Assembly: GCA_903935355.1 (NCBI GenBank)
Contig: CAIZRK010000039.1
Coordinates: forward strand, 1-52,319
From: an uncultured beta proteobacterium
GTDB taxonomy: Bacteria > Pseudomonadota > Gammaproteobacteria > Burkholderiales > Burkholderiaceae
DNA: 52,319 nt
Direction: 5' to 3'
Part shown: one piece after another, positions 34,353 through 41,813 of the stretch
Numbering within the stretch: the stretch's first letter is position 1
Layout of the letters: every line of letters starts with the position of its first letter
Program-made: the position numbers and the translations under genes
Notes under the pieces: generated by a model
What the model was told of the DNA's origin: nothing
What the model saw: the letters and a program-made list of their open reading frames with translations, nothing else
Databases searched by the model: none

Positions 34353-36275
34353 CTAGCTAGGCTCGGGTCCGACTTTCTGGGATATATCCTGCTGGAGTCG
34401 GGCAACGAAAGCATCAAGAGGCATTACACCTAAATCGATTCCGCCACGGGCACGAACGGCCACCGTATTACTTTGGGCTTCTTTATCACCAATAACTAGC
34501 AAAAATGGGAGCTTTTGTAATGCGTGCTCGCGTATTTTATACGTTATTTTCTCATTTCGCAAATCACATTCGACTCTAAACCCTTGTTTTTTCAGCAATT
34601 GCTGCAGTTGTTGTGCATATGCAGCAGAATTTTCAGAGATAGTGAGGATCGCAACCTGAGTGGGTGCTAGCCAAACTGGCATATTTCCAGCATGATTTTC
34701 GATCAAAATGCCAATAAAACGCTCTAAAGAACCCACAATAGCCCGATGGAGCATTACTGGAGTCTTACGGGTATTGTCTTGGGCAACGTATTGCGCGCCT
34801 AAACGCTCTGGCATTGAGAAATCCACCTGAATAGTGCCGCACTGCCAAGTACGACCAATGGAGTCTTTAAGGTGATATTCGATCTTTGGACCATAAAAAG
34901 CACCCTCACCTGGTAATTCTTCCCATTCTTGGCCAGAAGCAGTTAAAGCACCACGCAAAGCAGCTTCAGCCTTATCCCAAATCGCATCATCTCCAACACG
35001 CTTAGTTGGGCGAAGCGCCAATTTCACAGCTACCCCATTAAAACCAAAGTCTTGATAGACATTTCGAACCGCTTTATCAAAAGCAGCGACTTCCGCCTGA
35101 ATCTGATCTTCAGTACAAAAGATATGGCCATCGTCTTGGGTAAAGCCACGCACACGCATTAAGCCATGCAAAGCGCCCGATGGCTCATTGCGATGACATT
35201 GACCAAACTCGCCGTAACGTAATGGCAATTCACGATAACTATGCAAACCAGAATTAAAGATCTGTACATGGCCTGGGCAGTTCATCGGCTTTAATGCATA
35301 AGCGCGATTCTCTGATTCAGTTGTGAACATATTTTCTTTGTAGTTATCCCAGTGACCGGATTTTTCCCAAAGACCGCGATCCAAAATCTGTGGTGCTTTT
35401 ACTTCCTGATAGCCTTCGTTGTGATAAACGCGGCGCATGTATTGCTCAACCTCTTGCCAAATTGACCAACCCTTTGGGTGCCAAAAGATTAAGCCTGGAG
35501 CTTCTGCTTGAAAATGAAATAAGTCCAATAATTTGCCAAGGCGACGGTGGTCGCGTTTCTCAGCCTCTTCGAGCATATGTAAATGCGCATCTTGATCTTC
35601 TTTTTTCAACCAAGCAGTACCGTAAATCCGTTGCAACATCTCATTCTTGCTGTCGCCACGCCAATATGCCCCAGCTACGCTCAAAAGCTTAAAGACCTTG
35701 AGCTTGCCAGTCGATGGCACATGGGGGCCGCGGCATAAATCCGTGAACTTACCTTCGGCATATAAAGAAACATCTTCACCTTGCGGAATGCTAGCAATAA
35801 TTTGTGCTTTGTAGTGCTCACCTTGATCTTTAAAGAACTTCACAGCCTCATCACGTGGCATGACTGTTCTCACAACTAGCTCATCCTTCTTGGCAAGCTC
35901 AGTCATTTTCTTTTCGAGCGCGACCAAATCCTCTGGTGTGAATGGACGATGAAAAGAAAAGTCGTAGTAAAACCCATTTTCAATGACGGGGCCAATAGTG
36001 ACCTGCGCCTCTGGGAAGAGTTCTTTAACAGCATAAGCCAGTAAGTGCGCTGTGGAGTGACGTACGATCTCGAGAGCTTCAGGGCTTTTCTCAGTAATGA
36101 TCGCCAATTGACTGTCTTTATCAATCACAAAGCTGGCATCGACCATCTTGCCATCGACAATGCCGCCTAATGCAGCTTTCGCAAGACCGCTACCGATACT
36201 TTGCGCAACATCAATGACGCGCACGGGAGCATCAAACTCTCGTTTTGATCCATCGGGAAGAGTAACTACAGGCAT
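34353..36275 (-). CDS. thrS: Threonyl-tRNA synthetase
   Basis: Class II enzyme for tRNA-Thr. I choose the ATG at 36273-36275 ([14 protein letters not shown]), with GGAG five bases upstream and the universal N-terminus; an in-frame ATG 18 codons earlier is rejected. This gives 640 residues (E. coli 642). The TGS domain is about 1-63, the editing SAD domain has [16 protein letters not shown], and the catalytic core has the zinc cysteine in PMNCPGH and motif 2 [10 protein letters not shown]. The anticodon-binding domain follows from about residue 535. First gene of thrS-infC-rpmI-rplT. Confidence 0.97.
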
Positions 36276-36331
36276 GTCTGCTCCATCATATTTATCTACA
36301 GTATTTATTTCTTTACTACCTGTCATCAACT

Positions 36332-36482: not shown

Positions 36483-38504
36483 TCACCGGCGCCGCACTTG
36501 GGTCACCCCTTTGACCTCTTCTAGGCTATTTTGTACTAATCGCAGTGCTTCTGAGTCTTTAATTTCAACGGTTAAGAGTATTTGGGCTAGCCCTTTCTTG
36601 ACAGACTTCCGTAAGTCAATGACATGAACACCTTGTCTTGTCAGAATCTCAAATAGCTCACGCATTAACTCTGGACGATCCAATCCAGTGACGGCTAAAT
36701 CTGCCGGGAATACCCGTTTTGCATCACTCGTAGGCAAAGCTTCTGTAGAGATTGCATTCCATTCAGTCTGAATCACCCGCTCTGGCGCCCTTTCTAAAAG
36801 AGCGCGAAAGGTTTTGCATGACCTTCTATGAATCGATACCCCTCGCCCTTGCGTAATAAAACCGGCAATAGCATCAGGAGGCACAGGCCGGCAACAACGG
36901 GCTAGTTGCGTCAGTAAAGAATCTACCCCCACTACCAAGACATCGCTAGCTTGACCTTGCTTACGACTGCTTTGTCTAAGAATAATTTCAGGGGTAGCAG
37001 GAGCTACTTTAGTATCTGCTTTTTGCTCTGCCTTTGTTTCAGGCTTTGCATGTAATGAGGTCTCCTCATCATCAAGCGCATTAAACCAAGATCGCACTCG
37101 CGTACGAGCCCTTTGGGATCTGAGGTAATTACGGTCAGGGCTAATCCAATCGCGCGAAGGTCCACCATGCTTCACAGCGATGATATCCACAGTTTGACCA
37201 TTTTGTAATGGGGTATCTAAGGGAACCATGGCGCCATCTAGCTTCGCACCTCTGCAGCGATGACCTAAATCAGTATGAACTGCATATGCAAAATCAATTG
37301 GGGAGGAGCCCTTCTCTAAAGAAATCACCTTCCCCAGTGGAGTAAGCACATAAATATGATCATCAATTTCATGATGTTTAAGCTGCTCCCATGCATCTTC
37401 CTTCCAAGAGATTAGTTGCCTTGCCCAAGCAATCTGGCGCTCATAAGCTAGCGCAGCGCTATGAGTACCAGCTTGATGTGCTGGATTGAGATTTACATTG
37501 CTATTGGCATTTTTAGGTGGGGTAGCAGCACCTACATAAGCTCCCTCTTTGTACCGCCAATGCGCAGCTAAACCATATTCTGCTTGTTGGTGCATTTCTT
37601 GAGTACGTACCTGTATCTCAAAGGCAGCACCGTTTTCATCCATGACAACAGTATGCAGTGATTGATAGCCGTTCGGTTTTGGCCTGGCAATGTAATCATC
37701 AAACTCTCGGGGCACTGGCTGCCAAAGGTGATGAACCAGACCTAAGGTGGCATAACAAGATTTTAGGTCTGGCACGAGCACTCGAAAAGCTCTCACGTCA
37801 TACAGGTTAGCAAAATCTAGCGACTTGCCTTGCATCTTTTTCCAGATGCTGTAGATATGCTTTGGTCGCCCTTGAACTTCGCTAACAATATGGGCGGCGC
37901 TTAACTCTTCTTTCAGGCGCAAAACAATTTGCTCAATAAAGGATTCACGCTCAATGCGCTTGCCATCGAGCATTTTGGCAATCTCGCGATAGAGATCAGG
38001 AGAGAGCACCCTAAATGCTAAATCTTCCATTTCCCATTTCATTTGCCAAATACCTAGACGATTGGCTAAAGAGGCATCAATATTCAGAATCTCTTGGGCC
38101 CATGCATGAGGCATCTCTATTTTTTCGTGGGTAATCCATCTCAGGGTCTGCAAACGAGAGGCTAGATAAATGAGAACTACGCGTAAATCATCTCCAAACG
38201 CTAGGAGCATTTTGCGTAGCATCTCTTCTTGCCCAGAAATACTTTTACCACCATCATCACGCACTAACTTTGCTTGGGCTTGGCGCAATCCACGATAACC
38301 AATTAGCAGTTTTGCTGGCTCTTCGCCAATCAGCTTAATAAGTGCTTCTTTGCCATGCGTGCGCGCAATATTACTAGCAGCCGTCAAGCTCGCCTCATCA
38401 AGATGAAGATCTTGCAGTATTTGGAGAACACCAGCAGCGTGCTCTTCTGCTGGCTCCCCATACCAACCGTCAACTATTTTGTGGTTCTCAGGAGGGGTTG
38501 TCAT
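36483..38504 (-). CDS. relA: RelA, (p)ppGpp synthetase of the stringent response
   Basis: Ribosome-associated synthetase that makes (p)ppGpp when uncharged tRNA accumulates. Length 673. The N-terminal pseudo-hydrolase part (about 20-175) lacks the HD metal pair needed for hydrolysis. The synthetase domain has FANLYDVRAFRVLVPD (231-246) and the acidic EFDD motif (267-270) typical of monofunctional RelA, then YIARPKPNGYQSLHT. TGS (about 380-440, HIYVLTPLGKVISL), a zinc-finger-like segment (ARCCRPVPPDAI) and a C-terminal ACT domain follow. It is 33 bases downstream of the CDF-hydrolase fusion gene and may be co-transcribed with it. Confidence 0.94.
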   Translation of the reverse strand: MTTPPENHKIVDGWYGEPAEEHAAGVLQILQDLHLDEASLTAASNIARTHGKEALIKLIGEEPAKLLIGYRGLRQAQAKLVRDDGGKSISGQEEMLRKMLLAFGDDLRVVLIYLASRLQTLRWITHEKIEMPHAWAQEILNIDASLANRLGIWQMKWEMEDLAFRVLSPDLYREIAKMLDGKRIERESFIEQIVLRLKEELSAAHIVSEVQGRPKHIYSIWKKMQGKSLDFANLYDVRAFRVLVPDLKSCYATLGLVHHLWQPVPREFDDYIARPKPNGYQSLHTVVMDENGAAFEIQVRTQEMHQQAEYGLAAHWRYKEGAYVGAATPPKNANSNVNLNPAHQAGTHSAALAYERQIAWARQLISWKEDAWEQLKHHEIDDHIYVLTPLGKVISLEKGSSPIDFAYAVHTDLGHRCRGAKLDGAMVPLDTPLQNGQTVDIIAVKHGGPSRDWISPDRNYLRSQRARTRVRSWFNALDDEETSLHAKPETKAEQKADTKVAPATPEIILRQSSRKQGQASDVLVVGVDSLLTQLARCCRPVPPDAIAGFITQGRGVSIHRRSCKTFRALLERAPERVIQTEWNAISTEALPTSDAKRVFPADLAVTGLDRPELMRELFEILTRQGVHVIDLRKSVKKGLAQILLTVEIKDSEALRLVQNSLEEVKGVTQVRRR

Positions 38505-38537: not shown

Positions 38538-40379
38538 TTATCTAAAGAATTCTTTTGCTAAAGCCACTTGCTCTGCTTTAACAAAAGCAGGTGCATGGCC
38601 TACCCTAGGAATTTCTATAGAACGCGCATAAGGGTTTAGCTCACACATCTCCGCTACAGTTTTGGCTGAGAGTAAATCAGATTCACCGCCACGCACAATC
38701 AGCATCGGAATATGGATCTGCTTAAAAGCATGCCACATCGCCATCTCACCCGCTTTTGCCATGATAGGATTTACTGATGCAAATGGTACAGAGATATCAG
38801 GGTCGTAATGCATCCCCCATAGCCCCCCTTTTTCTATGAGCATAGGGCCGTTATAAATCTCCCACTCTTGCGGGGTATGCTCACCAAATGAAGCACAAAT
38901 CGTATTTAAACGCTCCAAGGCATCAGTACGATTGGCAAATGCAAAGGGTTGTCCAACATAGGAGCTTAAGCGTTTAATTGCTTCGGGCTCAATACGTGGA
39001 CCGACATCATTTAGCAGCATCCGAGCAATCGGATTATTGGGCATCGAGGCATATACCATTCCGATTAATCCACCCATCGAGGTTCCGAACCAATCGACTT
39101 GAGAAACTCCTAGATGCTTTATCAAGTTCGCCATATCTGCGACATATTGAGGAAGCGCATAGTTCATTGGATTTTGCAATCGATCTGAATTTCCGCGTCC
39201 TACAACATCAGGGCATACGACGTAATAGTCTTGGCACATCGCCTGTGCTAGCGTATTAAAGTCACTACCACGCCGAGTTAAGCCATGGACACACAGTAAG
39301 ACCTTAGGGTTATGGGGACTACCCCAAGCGTGATAAGCCATTCGATGAGGGCCATCAGGACTAGTACAGTTAACAAAGAAAGTATCGCCTTGGTGCACAA
39401 CATCACTAGCAAACTGCATTGGCGCTAGATCTTCATCTCCCACTTCTGGCTGTAAAGTGACGTGATCGATACCATGCTTTGCCAATAACATCTGATGAAT
39501 AATTACCAACATTTCTGGCCACTTTGCCATATCCTCTATCTCGATATGACCAATCAAAGCTGGAAAGTTGGGGGTCATTTCCCAAACATGTAAATCATGC
39601 ACAGCTAATACACCGGGCATTTTCTTTAAATCGCGCCCGACCTCTAGATAGTCAATATGCAACGGTACACCTTCCATCAAGAAGTGATATGACTCACGCA
39701 AGATGGAGAAGGTCGACTTCAAAATCAGTAATGAAACAAAAATAGAAAGCAAGGCATCAGCTGGCATCCAGCCGGTAAATTGAATGATCAAACCAGCGAG
39801 CAATGCGCCAACTGAGCCGAGTAGATCACCCATGACATGCACTAATGCAGCGCGGGTATTAACACTCTTTTTATCGTGCGAGAGAACCCAAGCAACCAAG
39901 ATATTCATCAACAAGCCAATAAATGCGACGATGCTTACGGTAAAGCCGTCAACTTGATGTGGGGTAAAGAAGCGGCTAATCGCCTCACTCACAATCCATA
40001 CCACTAAGGCTAGCATGGCAATACCATTAACAAAGGCAGCTAAAGCTTCAGCACGACCAAATCCAAATGAATGTTTGGGTGATGGTGGTCGCCTAGAAAT
40101 CATTTGCGCTAATAAGGCTAAGCCAAGAGCTGCAGCATCGGTCACCATATGACCAGCATCCGAAAGCAATGCCAGAGAACCTGCAAAGTAAGCTGCTGCT
40201 GCCTCTACCCCAGAAAAACCAAGAGTGAGGATAAGGGCGATTAACAGTAGATTCTGATTAGAAGCTTGCCGAGTATGGGTATGGTCAGCATCCCCGCGCT
40301 TATGGGCATGAAGAGCGCGCTCTTCTACTGAGCTCGTCTGAGAAGGATTTACTGTAGAGATATGAGTGGGATCAGACAT
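38538..40379 (-). CDS. Fusion: CDF cation efflux transporter + alpha/beta hydrolase
   Basis: One 613-residue frame encodes two known families. Residues 1-40 are a His-rich cytosolic tail. Residues 42-235 hold six membrane segments of a cation diffusion facilitator with metal site Asp74/His77/Asp81 (SDAGHMVTD) and His181/Asp185 (HVMGD). Residues 240-312 are the CDF cytoplasmic domain (VHDLHVWEM). Residues 325-613 are an alpha/beta hydrolase: oxyanion HG (365-366), nucleophile Ser434 in GTSMGG, probable acid Asp568 and His595 in VGHAP. All catalytic and metal residues are intact, and no stop or frameshift lies between domains. The closest CDF type is ZitB/CzcD; hydrolase substrate unknown. Starts at ATG; upstream of relA. 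Confidence 0.9.
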   Translation of the reverse strand: MSDPTHISTVNPSQTSSVEERALHAHKRGDADHTHTRQASNQNLLLIALILTLGFSGVEAAAAYFAGSLALLSDAGHMVTDAAALGLALLAQMISRRPPSPKHSFGFGRAEALAAFVNGIAMLALVVWIVSEAISRFFTPHQVDGFTVSIVAFIGLLMNILVAWVLSHDKKSVNTRAALVHVMGDLLGSVGALLAGLIIQFTGWMPADALLSIFVSLLILKSTFSILRESYHFLMEGVPLHIDYLEVGRDLKKMPGVLAVHDLHVWEMTPNFPALIGHIEIEDMAKWPEMLVIIHQMLLAKHGIDHVTLQPEVGDEDLAPMQFASDVVHQGDTFFVNCTSPDGPHRMAYHAWGSPHNPKVLLCVHGLTRRGSDFNTLAQAMCQDYYVVCPDVVGRGNSDRLQNPMNYALPQYVADMANLIKHLGVSQVDWFGTSMGGLIGMVYASMPNNPIARMLLNDVGPRIEPEAIKRLSSYVGQPFAFANRTDALERLNTICASFGEHTPQEWEIYNGPMLIEKGGLWGMHYDPDISVPFASVNPIMAKAGEMAMWHAFKQIHIPMLIVRGGESDLLSAKTVAEMCELNPYARSIEIPRVGHAPAFVKAEQVALAKEFFR

Positions 40380-40414
40380 AGTGATCCCATTATTTCATTA
40401 AATGATGTCAGGAG

Positions 40415-41065
40415 TTAAAAACCCGCAACGTCAACAGGGGCACCAGTCTTGGCCAGCACTTCATCTTTAGTGACACCAGGAGCTAACTCAACTAACTTTA
40501 GCCCTTGGGGAGTGATATCGAGCACGCATAAGTCAGTAATGATGCGGCTAATTACTCCCACTCCAGTTAAAGGCAAGGTGCAATGGGGCAATATCTTGAT
40601 TTCTTCAGTGCCATCCTTCTTTTTCGCAACGTGCTCCATTAAAACCACGACATGTTTTACGCCAGCTACTAGGTCCATTGCACCGCCCATACCCTTGACC
40701 ATTTTTCCTGGAATCATCCAATTAGCTAAATCACCGTGCTCGCTTACTTGCATCGCACCTAGAATAGCGATATTGATTTTGCCAGCACGAATCATGCCAA
40801 AGGAATCAGCTGAAGAGAAAATTGAAGAGCCTGGTAAGGTAGTAACCGTTTGCTTACCTGCATTAATCAGATCGGCATCAATCGTCTCTTCAGTAGGAAA
40901 GGGACCTATCCCCAATAGCCCATTTTCAGATTGAAGCCACACTTCGATCTCTTTTGGCACGTAATTGGCAACTAAGGTTGGCATACCAATACCTAAGTTA
41001 ACGTAGTAACCATCTTTTAGCTCTTTAGCAGCACGCGCTGCCATTTGTTCTCTATTCCAAGGCAT
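40415..41065 (-). CDS. scoB: 3-oxoacid CoA-transferase subunit B
   Basis: Beta subunit of a family I CoA-transferase (succinyl-CoA:3-ketoacid or 3-oxoadipate type). [19 protein letters not shown] and [14 protein letters not shown] are N-terminal signatures; the catalytic glutamate is in [10 protein letters not shown] (about 50-59). Length 216. It follows subunit A by 46 bases. Acetoacetate is the likely substrate, allowing use of ketone bodies or PHB-derived acetoacetate; 3-oxoadipate cannot be excluded. Confidence 0.92.
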
Positions 41066-41111: not shown

Positions 41112-41813
41112 TTAAGCGACCGTTGTTAAAGTGCGCTGTTCAATACGTTTTTCTGGATGGGCATTAAGTACCAAGCGATGAACATAGATTCCGGGAGTGT
41201 GAATCTCATCTGGATCTAATTGGCCGTTCTCTACAATTTCTTCAACTTCAGCAACGGTAATCTTGCCAGCCATCGCCACTACAGGATTGAAATTGCGAGC
41301 GGTGTAGCGATAAACTAAATTACCAGATTTATCAGCCTTCCACGCCTTCACCAAAGAAATATCAGAAACGATGGCACGCTCCATAATGTACGTCTCACCA
41401 TCGAATTCTTTTTCTTCTTTGCCTTGGGCAACTAAGGTACCCACACCAGTCTTGGTATAAAAAGCTGGAATGCCACAACCACCTGCGCGTAACTTCTCAG
41501 CTAATGTCCCTTGGGGGGTGAATTCCAACTCTAATTCCCCTGCCAAGAATTGACGTTCAAATTCTTTGTTCTCGCCCACATAAGAGGCCACCATCTTTTT
41601 CACCTGACGAGAATTGAGCAATAAACCTAAGCCAAAACCATCAACTCCCGCATTATTGCCAATTGCCGTAAGGTTTTGTGCGCCTAAGACTTCAACAGCC
41701 TTAATTAAAGCCTCAGGGATTCCACAGAGCCCAAAACCGCCAAAAGCCAGTTTCTGACCATCTTTTAAGATATCCCGCAAGGCATCTACTGCCGATGGAT
41801 AGGTTTTATTCAT
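41112..41813 (-). CDS. scoA: 3-oxoacid CoA-transferase subunit A
   Basis: Alpha subunit, partner of the gene downstream. The CoA-binding glycine loop GGFGLCGIPEALIKAV (20-35) is present, then YVGENKEFERQFLAGELELEFTPQGTLAEKLRAGGCGIPAFYT (about 78-120) typical of the family. Length 233. ATG start. The pair is divergent from the ETF-quinone oxidoreductase gene, consistent with a fatty-acid and branched-chain degradation context. Confidence 0.92.
   Translation of the reverse strand: MNKTYPSAVDALRDILKDGQKLAFGGFGLCGIPEALIKAVEVLGAQNLTAIGNNAGVDGFGLGLLLNSRQVKKMVASYVGENKEFERQFLAGELELEFTPQGTLAEKLRAGGCGIPAFYTKTGVGTLVAQGKEEKEFDGETYIMERAIVSDISLVKAWKADKSGNLVYRYTARNFNPVVAMAGKITVAEVEEIVENGQLDPDEIHTPGIYVHRLVLNAHPEKRIEQRTLTTVA

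Follow-up and report, generated by a model that had tools for sequence, protein, structure and literature searches.

A CDF transporter fused to an alpha/beta hydrolase upstream of relA in Polynucleobacter

The window analysed here, a stretch of 52,319 nucleotides, carries on its minus strand, which the original prediction had left unstated, a gene (38538..40379) that consists of a single ATG-started frame without internal stops and encodes a CDF-hydrolase fusion protein of 613 amino acids. Upstream of it on the same strand lie scoB (40415..41065), for subunit B of 3-oxoacid CoA-transferase (TIGR02428, 318.1 bits over 243.55), and scoA (41112..41813), for subunit A (TIGR02429, 246.3 bits over 128.5). 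Downstream, and again on the minus strand, are a relA/spoT-type gene with HD_4, RelA_SpoT, TGS and ACT domains (36483..38504; relA below) and a gene at 34353..36329 that we presume from its sequence to be thrS-like and that is found as the same neighbour in related loci. The original prediction had placed an uninterrupted frame 33 bases ahead of relA, and the start of relA at 38504 agrees with that spacing. Scans for promoters and terminators returned about as many matches as they did in shuffled sequences. A terminator-like hairpin covers the start of the fusion gene on the plus strand (40365-40391), and such hairpins are similarly frequent in shuffles. We take the source genus to be Polynucleobacter; many of the best 80 of 513 relatives of the hydrolase belong to that genus, with identity among these 80 of up to 88%.

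Both parts of the protein are complete, as had been predicted. The CDF half (residues 45-312; 39444..40247, minus strand) is covered almost in full by the Pfam profiles Cation_efflux (PF01545; residues 45-235, profile positions 1-198 of 198) and ZT_dimer (PF16916; residues 241-312, profile positions 3-76 of 78), each above its curated cut-off, and the fusion protein scores 272 bits against TIGR01297 (cut-off 82.35). By these three models the transmembrane and cytoplasmic dimerisation domains of the CDF family are both whole. We take H77, D81, H181 and D185 to be the HDHD zinc-type site of this half, which would export Zn2+. The genome from which the window comes has a second CDF gene. The alpha/beta hydrolase half (approximately residues 330-613; 38541..39392, minus strand) matches Abhydrolase_6 at residues 361-606 (profile positions 1-215 of 217, above the curated cut-off) and has both the fold and the Ser-Asp-His triad (S434, D568 and H595). 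Its score against the PHA depolymerase model i-nPHAscl (NF050089), 50.1 bits, is below the cut-off of 300. The two halves are joined by a variable linker (approximately residues 313-329; 39393..39443, minus strand). An AlphaFold model of the protein, in which the CDF half appears as long helices followed by an alpha/beta domain, assigns a pLDDT below 50 to linker residues 316-324 and has no confident packing between the domains (pTM 0.52).

When the hydrolase half was used as the query at a match threshold of 1e-40, it was found in 146 of 151 genomes of the genus and had no match at that threshold in the other five. The match lies inside a stop-free frame of at least 600 codons, and is thus fused, in 111 of the 146. 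In four genomes the frames run to 506-571 codons and look cut by contig ends, which was seen for two (L170 and L171) and judged by coordinates for the others; 25 have a separate hydrolase gene, with frames of 324-391 codons; the fusion is broken in five (G108, G023, G117, G103 and G017) and split over contigs in one (G067). The original prediction had asked whether resequencing would reveal a stop or frameshift at the junction, and since the junction is open in 111 genomes, sequencing error in the window is not the explanation. The same 111 open frames, taken with the conservation of both halves, rule out artefact or decay as the source of the fusion, which the prediction had likewise argued was not decay. 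Its question whether close relatives have two separate genes is answered with yes for the 25 genomes and with no for most of the genus, and the case it had considered fatal, in which the parts are always separate genes, does not apply. The fusion frame is interrupted in one-contig genomes at L043 (G017), L048 (G108), L049 (G023) and L050 (G117); at L043 the damage seems to extend to relA, scoA and scoB as well as the hydrolase, resembling general genome decay.

Conservation of the two halves was followed in an alignment of 108 rows, made up of 107 different fused frames, including that of the window, and the window again. The residues named in the original prediction are intact throughout or nearly so: D74, H77 and D81 are present in all 108 rows, H181 in 106 and D185 in 107, and S434, D568 and H595 are invariant (108/108). 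All four HDHD residues are also kept in each of 25 rows of an alignment of separate CDFs with the window. Compared with the window, the fused rows have a mean identity of 0.85 over the membrane domain, 0.77 over the cytoplasmic CDF domain and 0.81 over the hydrolase. For each half, dN/dS lies at 0.03-0.05 in four of the five relatives compared, at dS values of 1.3-2.9 that are near saturation (dS is saturated in the fifth). The linker (residues 313-331) has a mean identity of 0.283, with one dN/dS estimate of 0.28, and among the linker strings listed, which reach six residues into the aligned hydrolase, length ranges from 19 to 56 amino acids. Stretches of Asp, Glu and His make up the linkers at L069, L072 and L151, and metal-binding loops of other CDF proteins look similar; the linker of the window is of another kind.

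One possible reason for joining the two proteins is that binding or transport of zinc by the CDF half alters the activity of the hydrolase, a form of metal gating that the original prediction had put forward. The halves share a polypeptide, the metal sites are intact, and 25 of 109 linker strings contain at least 15% histidine. Linker length and sequence vary freely, however, the window's own linker is not His-rich, and confident packing of the domains is missing from the structural model at a pTM of 0.52, which makes metal gating unlikely.

The surroundings of the hydrolase in other genera offer a second line of evidence on its role. In a family sample of 299 genomes from 25 genera, searched with the hydrolase half only, a match was found in 270 genomes and 16 genera, and 29 genomes were without one. 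Twenty loci from 13 of the other genera (L083-L102) were picked by hand and examined over 9.5 kb. The hydrolase is followed by a relA match in all 20, scoA and scoB are both present in 17, and a close bdh (at least 75% identity) is present in nine; a CDF match within 9.5 kb was found in none. Within the genus, 14 loci have bdh before the hydrolase. The one in-genus copy that was scanned, at L033, exceeds two curated cut-offs for 3-hydroxybutyrate (3HB) dehydrogenase, and the bdh of the 14 loci is, as predicted from sequence, a 3HB dehydrogenase, as it is in the other genera. The missing CDF match also counts against metal gating, and these observations bear on the further proposal of the original prediction that the hydrolase releases a metal-binding ligand, which would help the exporter. 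Co-location with the exporter is all that favors ligand release, and the hydrolase keeps its company of SCOT, 3HB dehydrogenase and relA in the fetched loci of other genera where the CDF match is missing; we consider this role very improbable.

The gene order also bears on the origin of the fusion. Separate genes are the older state because the outgroup from other genera has the hydrolase alone, and because the 20 fetched loci have no CDF match, insertion of the CDF gene probably took place within this genus. The relatives closest to it outside the genus, in the order sample, are 63-65% identical and belong to another family. In a tree of hydrolase and RelA from 71 hand-picked rows, the 30 fused rows all group together as a clade (SH-aLRT 100); the 14 separate forms that have bdh ahead of the hydrolase make up a second clade and the 11 separate forms without bdh a third, and the same three groups were recovered after four of the 71 rows were dropped. 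In the 71-row tree the 11 forms without bdh are sister to the fused clade (support 95), but with the four rows dropped the test does not reject a tree that unites every separate form (p-AU 0.136). A zinc-type CDF gene may have entered the conserved scoA-scoB-[bdh]-hydrolase-relA cluster at the base of Polynucleobacter or earlier, and a single in-frame fusion to the next gene, for the hydrolase, may then have occurred in an ancestor shared by most of the genus.

A search for independent fusions outside the genus in 399 genomes of the order, 369 of the class and 398 of the phylum (E-value cut-offs of 1e-115, 1e-100 and 1e-90, with up to three first-look candidates scored per genome) found none; the samples overlap, include seven, one and five genomes of the genus, respectively, and the search would miss fusions that have diverged or that use another hydrolase family. 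Two candidates were set aside. Frames of 609-673 codons surround the hydrolase in at least eight genomes of genus g3, and the four loci fetched (L085-L088) have no CDF match within 9.5 kb. Frame lengths of 924-952 suggested a three-domain CDF-SDR-hydrolase protein, and the loci that were opened hold three genes. At G458:C1:341359-342288 and 819927-820778, CDF matches lie in frames of 388 and 448 codons, which are longer than the CDF part alone.

What does the hydrolase half do? By gene order and length, it corresponds to PhaY2, the 3HB-oligomer hydrolase of Ralstonia eutropha H16. We take PhaY2 to be the PhaZc of other papers, and A1334 and A1337 of strain H16 to be bdh and spoT2. The order scoA-scoB-(bdh)-hydrolase-relA recurs in the 17 of 20 other-genus loci that have scoA, scoB, hydrolase and relA. 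H16_A1335 is PhaY2, the 3HB-oligomer hydrolase (PMC3430594), H16_A1331 is SCOT subunit A (PMC4008487), and a genome paper pairs H16_A1335 with an Azohydromonas gene, 870 long, for an 'alpha/beta hydrolase' (PMC11767486); PhaZb and PhaZc, also named PhaYs, are described as cleaving 3HB oligomers. Because of this gene order, hydrolysis of 3HB oligomers is a likelier role than metal gating or the release of a metal-binding ligand, and such oligomers would be the substrate. Among 81 genomes of the genus that were searched, PhaC is present in 75 and PhaZ in 80; the genome of the window has both, together with three phasin matches above the cut-off and a bdh located elsewhere (77% identical). With these genes present, a route from 3HB oligomer to acetoacetyl-CoA can run through the hydrolase, bdh and SCOT. 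According to a review, depolymerisation of PHB in R. eutropha is held back by (p)ppGpp (PMC7204398), and the position of the hydrolase next to relA fits this.

In the separate hydrolases of the genus, 43-89 residues precede the aligned domain; they open with a short cationic hydrophobic (amphipathic) segment, and a loose linker follows. The start assigned to the hydrolase is backed by 13 of the 14 loci of the bdh type, where it overlaps the bdh stop. A D18 test set 25 separate in-genus heads against 20 other-genus starts, with 13 of the head starts and the other-genus starts set by hand. D18 exceeded 1.34 in 22 of the 25 heads versus 1 of the 20 other-genus starts; the lower cut-off of 0.68, exceeded by all 25 heads and by 15 of the 20 other-genus starts, does not separate them. 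The highest 11-residue moments of the heads average 0.696, above all 1000 shuffled means (0.469, sd 0.023), although the rows are related and p exceeds 0.05 in 8 of 25 single-head tests. An AlphaFold model of the separate form draws helices in this segment (residues 1-29), at a pLDDT below 50. The fused linkers, of which 5 of 109 exceed a D18 of 0.68, are to all appearances without a cationic amphipathic segment.

The N-terminal segment is probably a membrane or granule anchor, and the CDF half, which stands where the separate forms have it, may replace the membrane anchor of the hydrolase. Read plainly, the enzyme would have exchanged a peripheral segment for an integral membrane protein as its anchor. 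Loss of the segment at the fusion is only one possibility, since the test also allows a tree in which the separate forms make up a single clade; in that case, the segment may have arisen only there.

These considerations lead to a reading to which we give about an even chance of being correct as a whole. Both halves would be active and independent, the CDF half as a Zn2+ exporter and the hydrolase half as a PhaY2-type enzyme that cuts 3HB oligomers during PHB mobilisation, and the flexible linker would hold the hydrolase at the cytosolic face of the inner membrane; metal gating would not be needed. The frame, its conservation, the single clade, the gene order and the PHB cycle genes are directly established, and the substrate, zinc, the membrane location and the role of the N-terminal segment are what we infer in addition. 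The main rival is that the fusion is neutral, a stop having been lost between neighbour genes in a small genome, with both halves unchanged, perhaps separated again by proteolysis, and the tether without benefit. Such a fusion would look much like a functional tether, and it would suit an unconserved linker, separate forms that are often adjacent or overlapping, and other genera that manage without the fusion. Yet 111 of 146 genomes retain the frame, as against the five broken and one split, and signals for starting the hydrolase within the fused gene are few: an internal ATG with a Shine-Dalgarno-like motif occurs in 5 of 107 fused genes, and any start codon with such a motif in 12, which also gives little support to internal initiation that would yield the hydrolase by itself. 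A neutral fusion is a tentative alternative to the membrane tether. Building on the tether, one could imagine that the zinc state of the CDF half, or its movement of zinc, sets the activity or place of the membrane-held hydrolase and so couples zinc homeostasis to PHB mobilisation beside a ppGpp enzyme, perhaps within one transcript, but we find such coupling decidedly improbable.

As a gene fusion this is a clean case, with separate, adjacent and fused states all surviving in one genus, both halves conserved, and an enzyme whose N-terminal segment is missing where the transporter half occupies that position. The proposed consequence of the merger in many freshwater Polynucleobacter, a membrane tie for a probable enzyme in the digestion of the stored polyester PHB, offers a testable case of a transporter that serves as the membrane anchor of an unrelated enzyme. 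The hydrolase-relA neighbourhood recurs in the fetched loci of other genera of Burkholderiaceae, which suggests that PHB mobilisation and the stringent response may be connected. If coupling of zinc to PHB were true, metal stress, carbon reserve and stringent response would be joined at one locus; if the fusion is no more than neutral, it illustrates well how neighbouring genes fuse in small genomes.

The architecture itself has been known since 2010, in one sentence, which revises the view in the original prediction that no such system had been described. Matias et al. mention a Polynucleobacter CDF with a MhpC-like alpha/beta hydrolase as its C-terminal domain, with the strain printed as QLW-PIDMWA-1 (PMC2894845). 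In the excerpt available, that sentence concerns one protein and comes without gene context, distribution, origin or role. It is the only mention of the fusion found among open-licence papers, and searches of that literature yielded nothing on the spread of the fusion, its single clade, its gene context, the PHB link or the N-terminal segment. Among known systems, PhaY2 (H16_A1335) is an alpha/beta hydrolase of like length whose locus tag comes shortly after those of SCOT (A1331) and the presumed bdh (A1334) and before that of the presumed spoT2 (A1337); it is likened to the hydrolase half by gene order and length, and unlike that half it is not described as CDF-fused in the text available. 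Two other hydrolases, 4ose of Rickettsia typhi (28% identical) and 3bwx of Novosphingobium (31% identical), have chains of about 285 residues and titles that name no function. The CDF half shares a full Cation_efflux and ZT_dimer pair and the HDHD site with the Zn-CDF exporters (CzcD/ZitB and human ZnT), and its nearest solved folds are human ZnT1 and ZnT3. The fusion differs from these exporters in that it scores below the ZitB equivalog cut-off (NF002923; 267.1 versus 408) and carries a C-terminal hydrolase.
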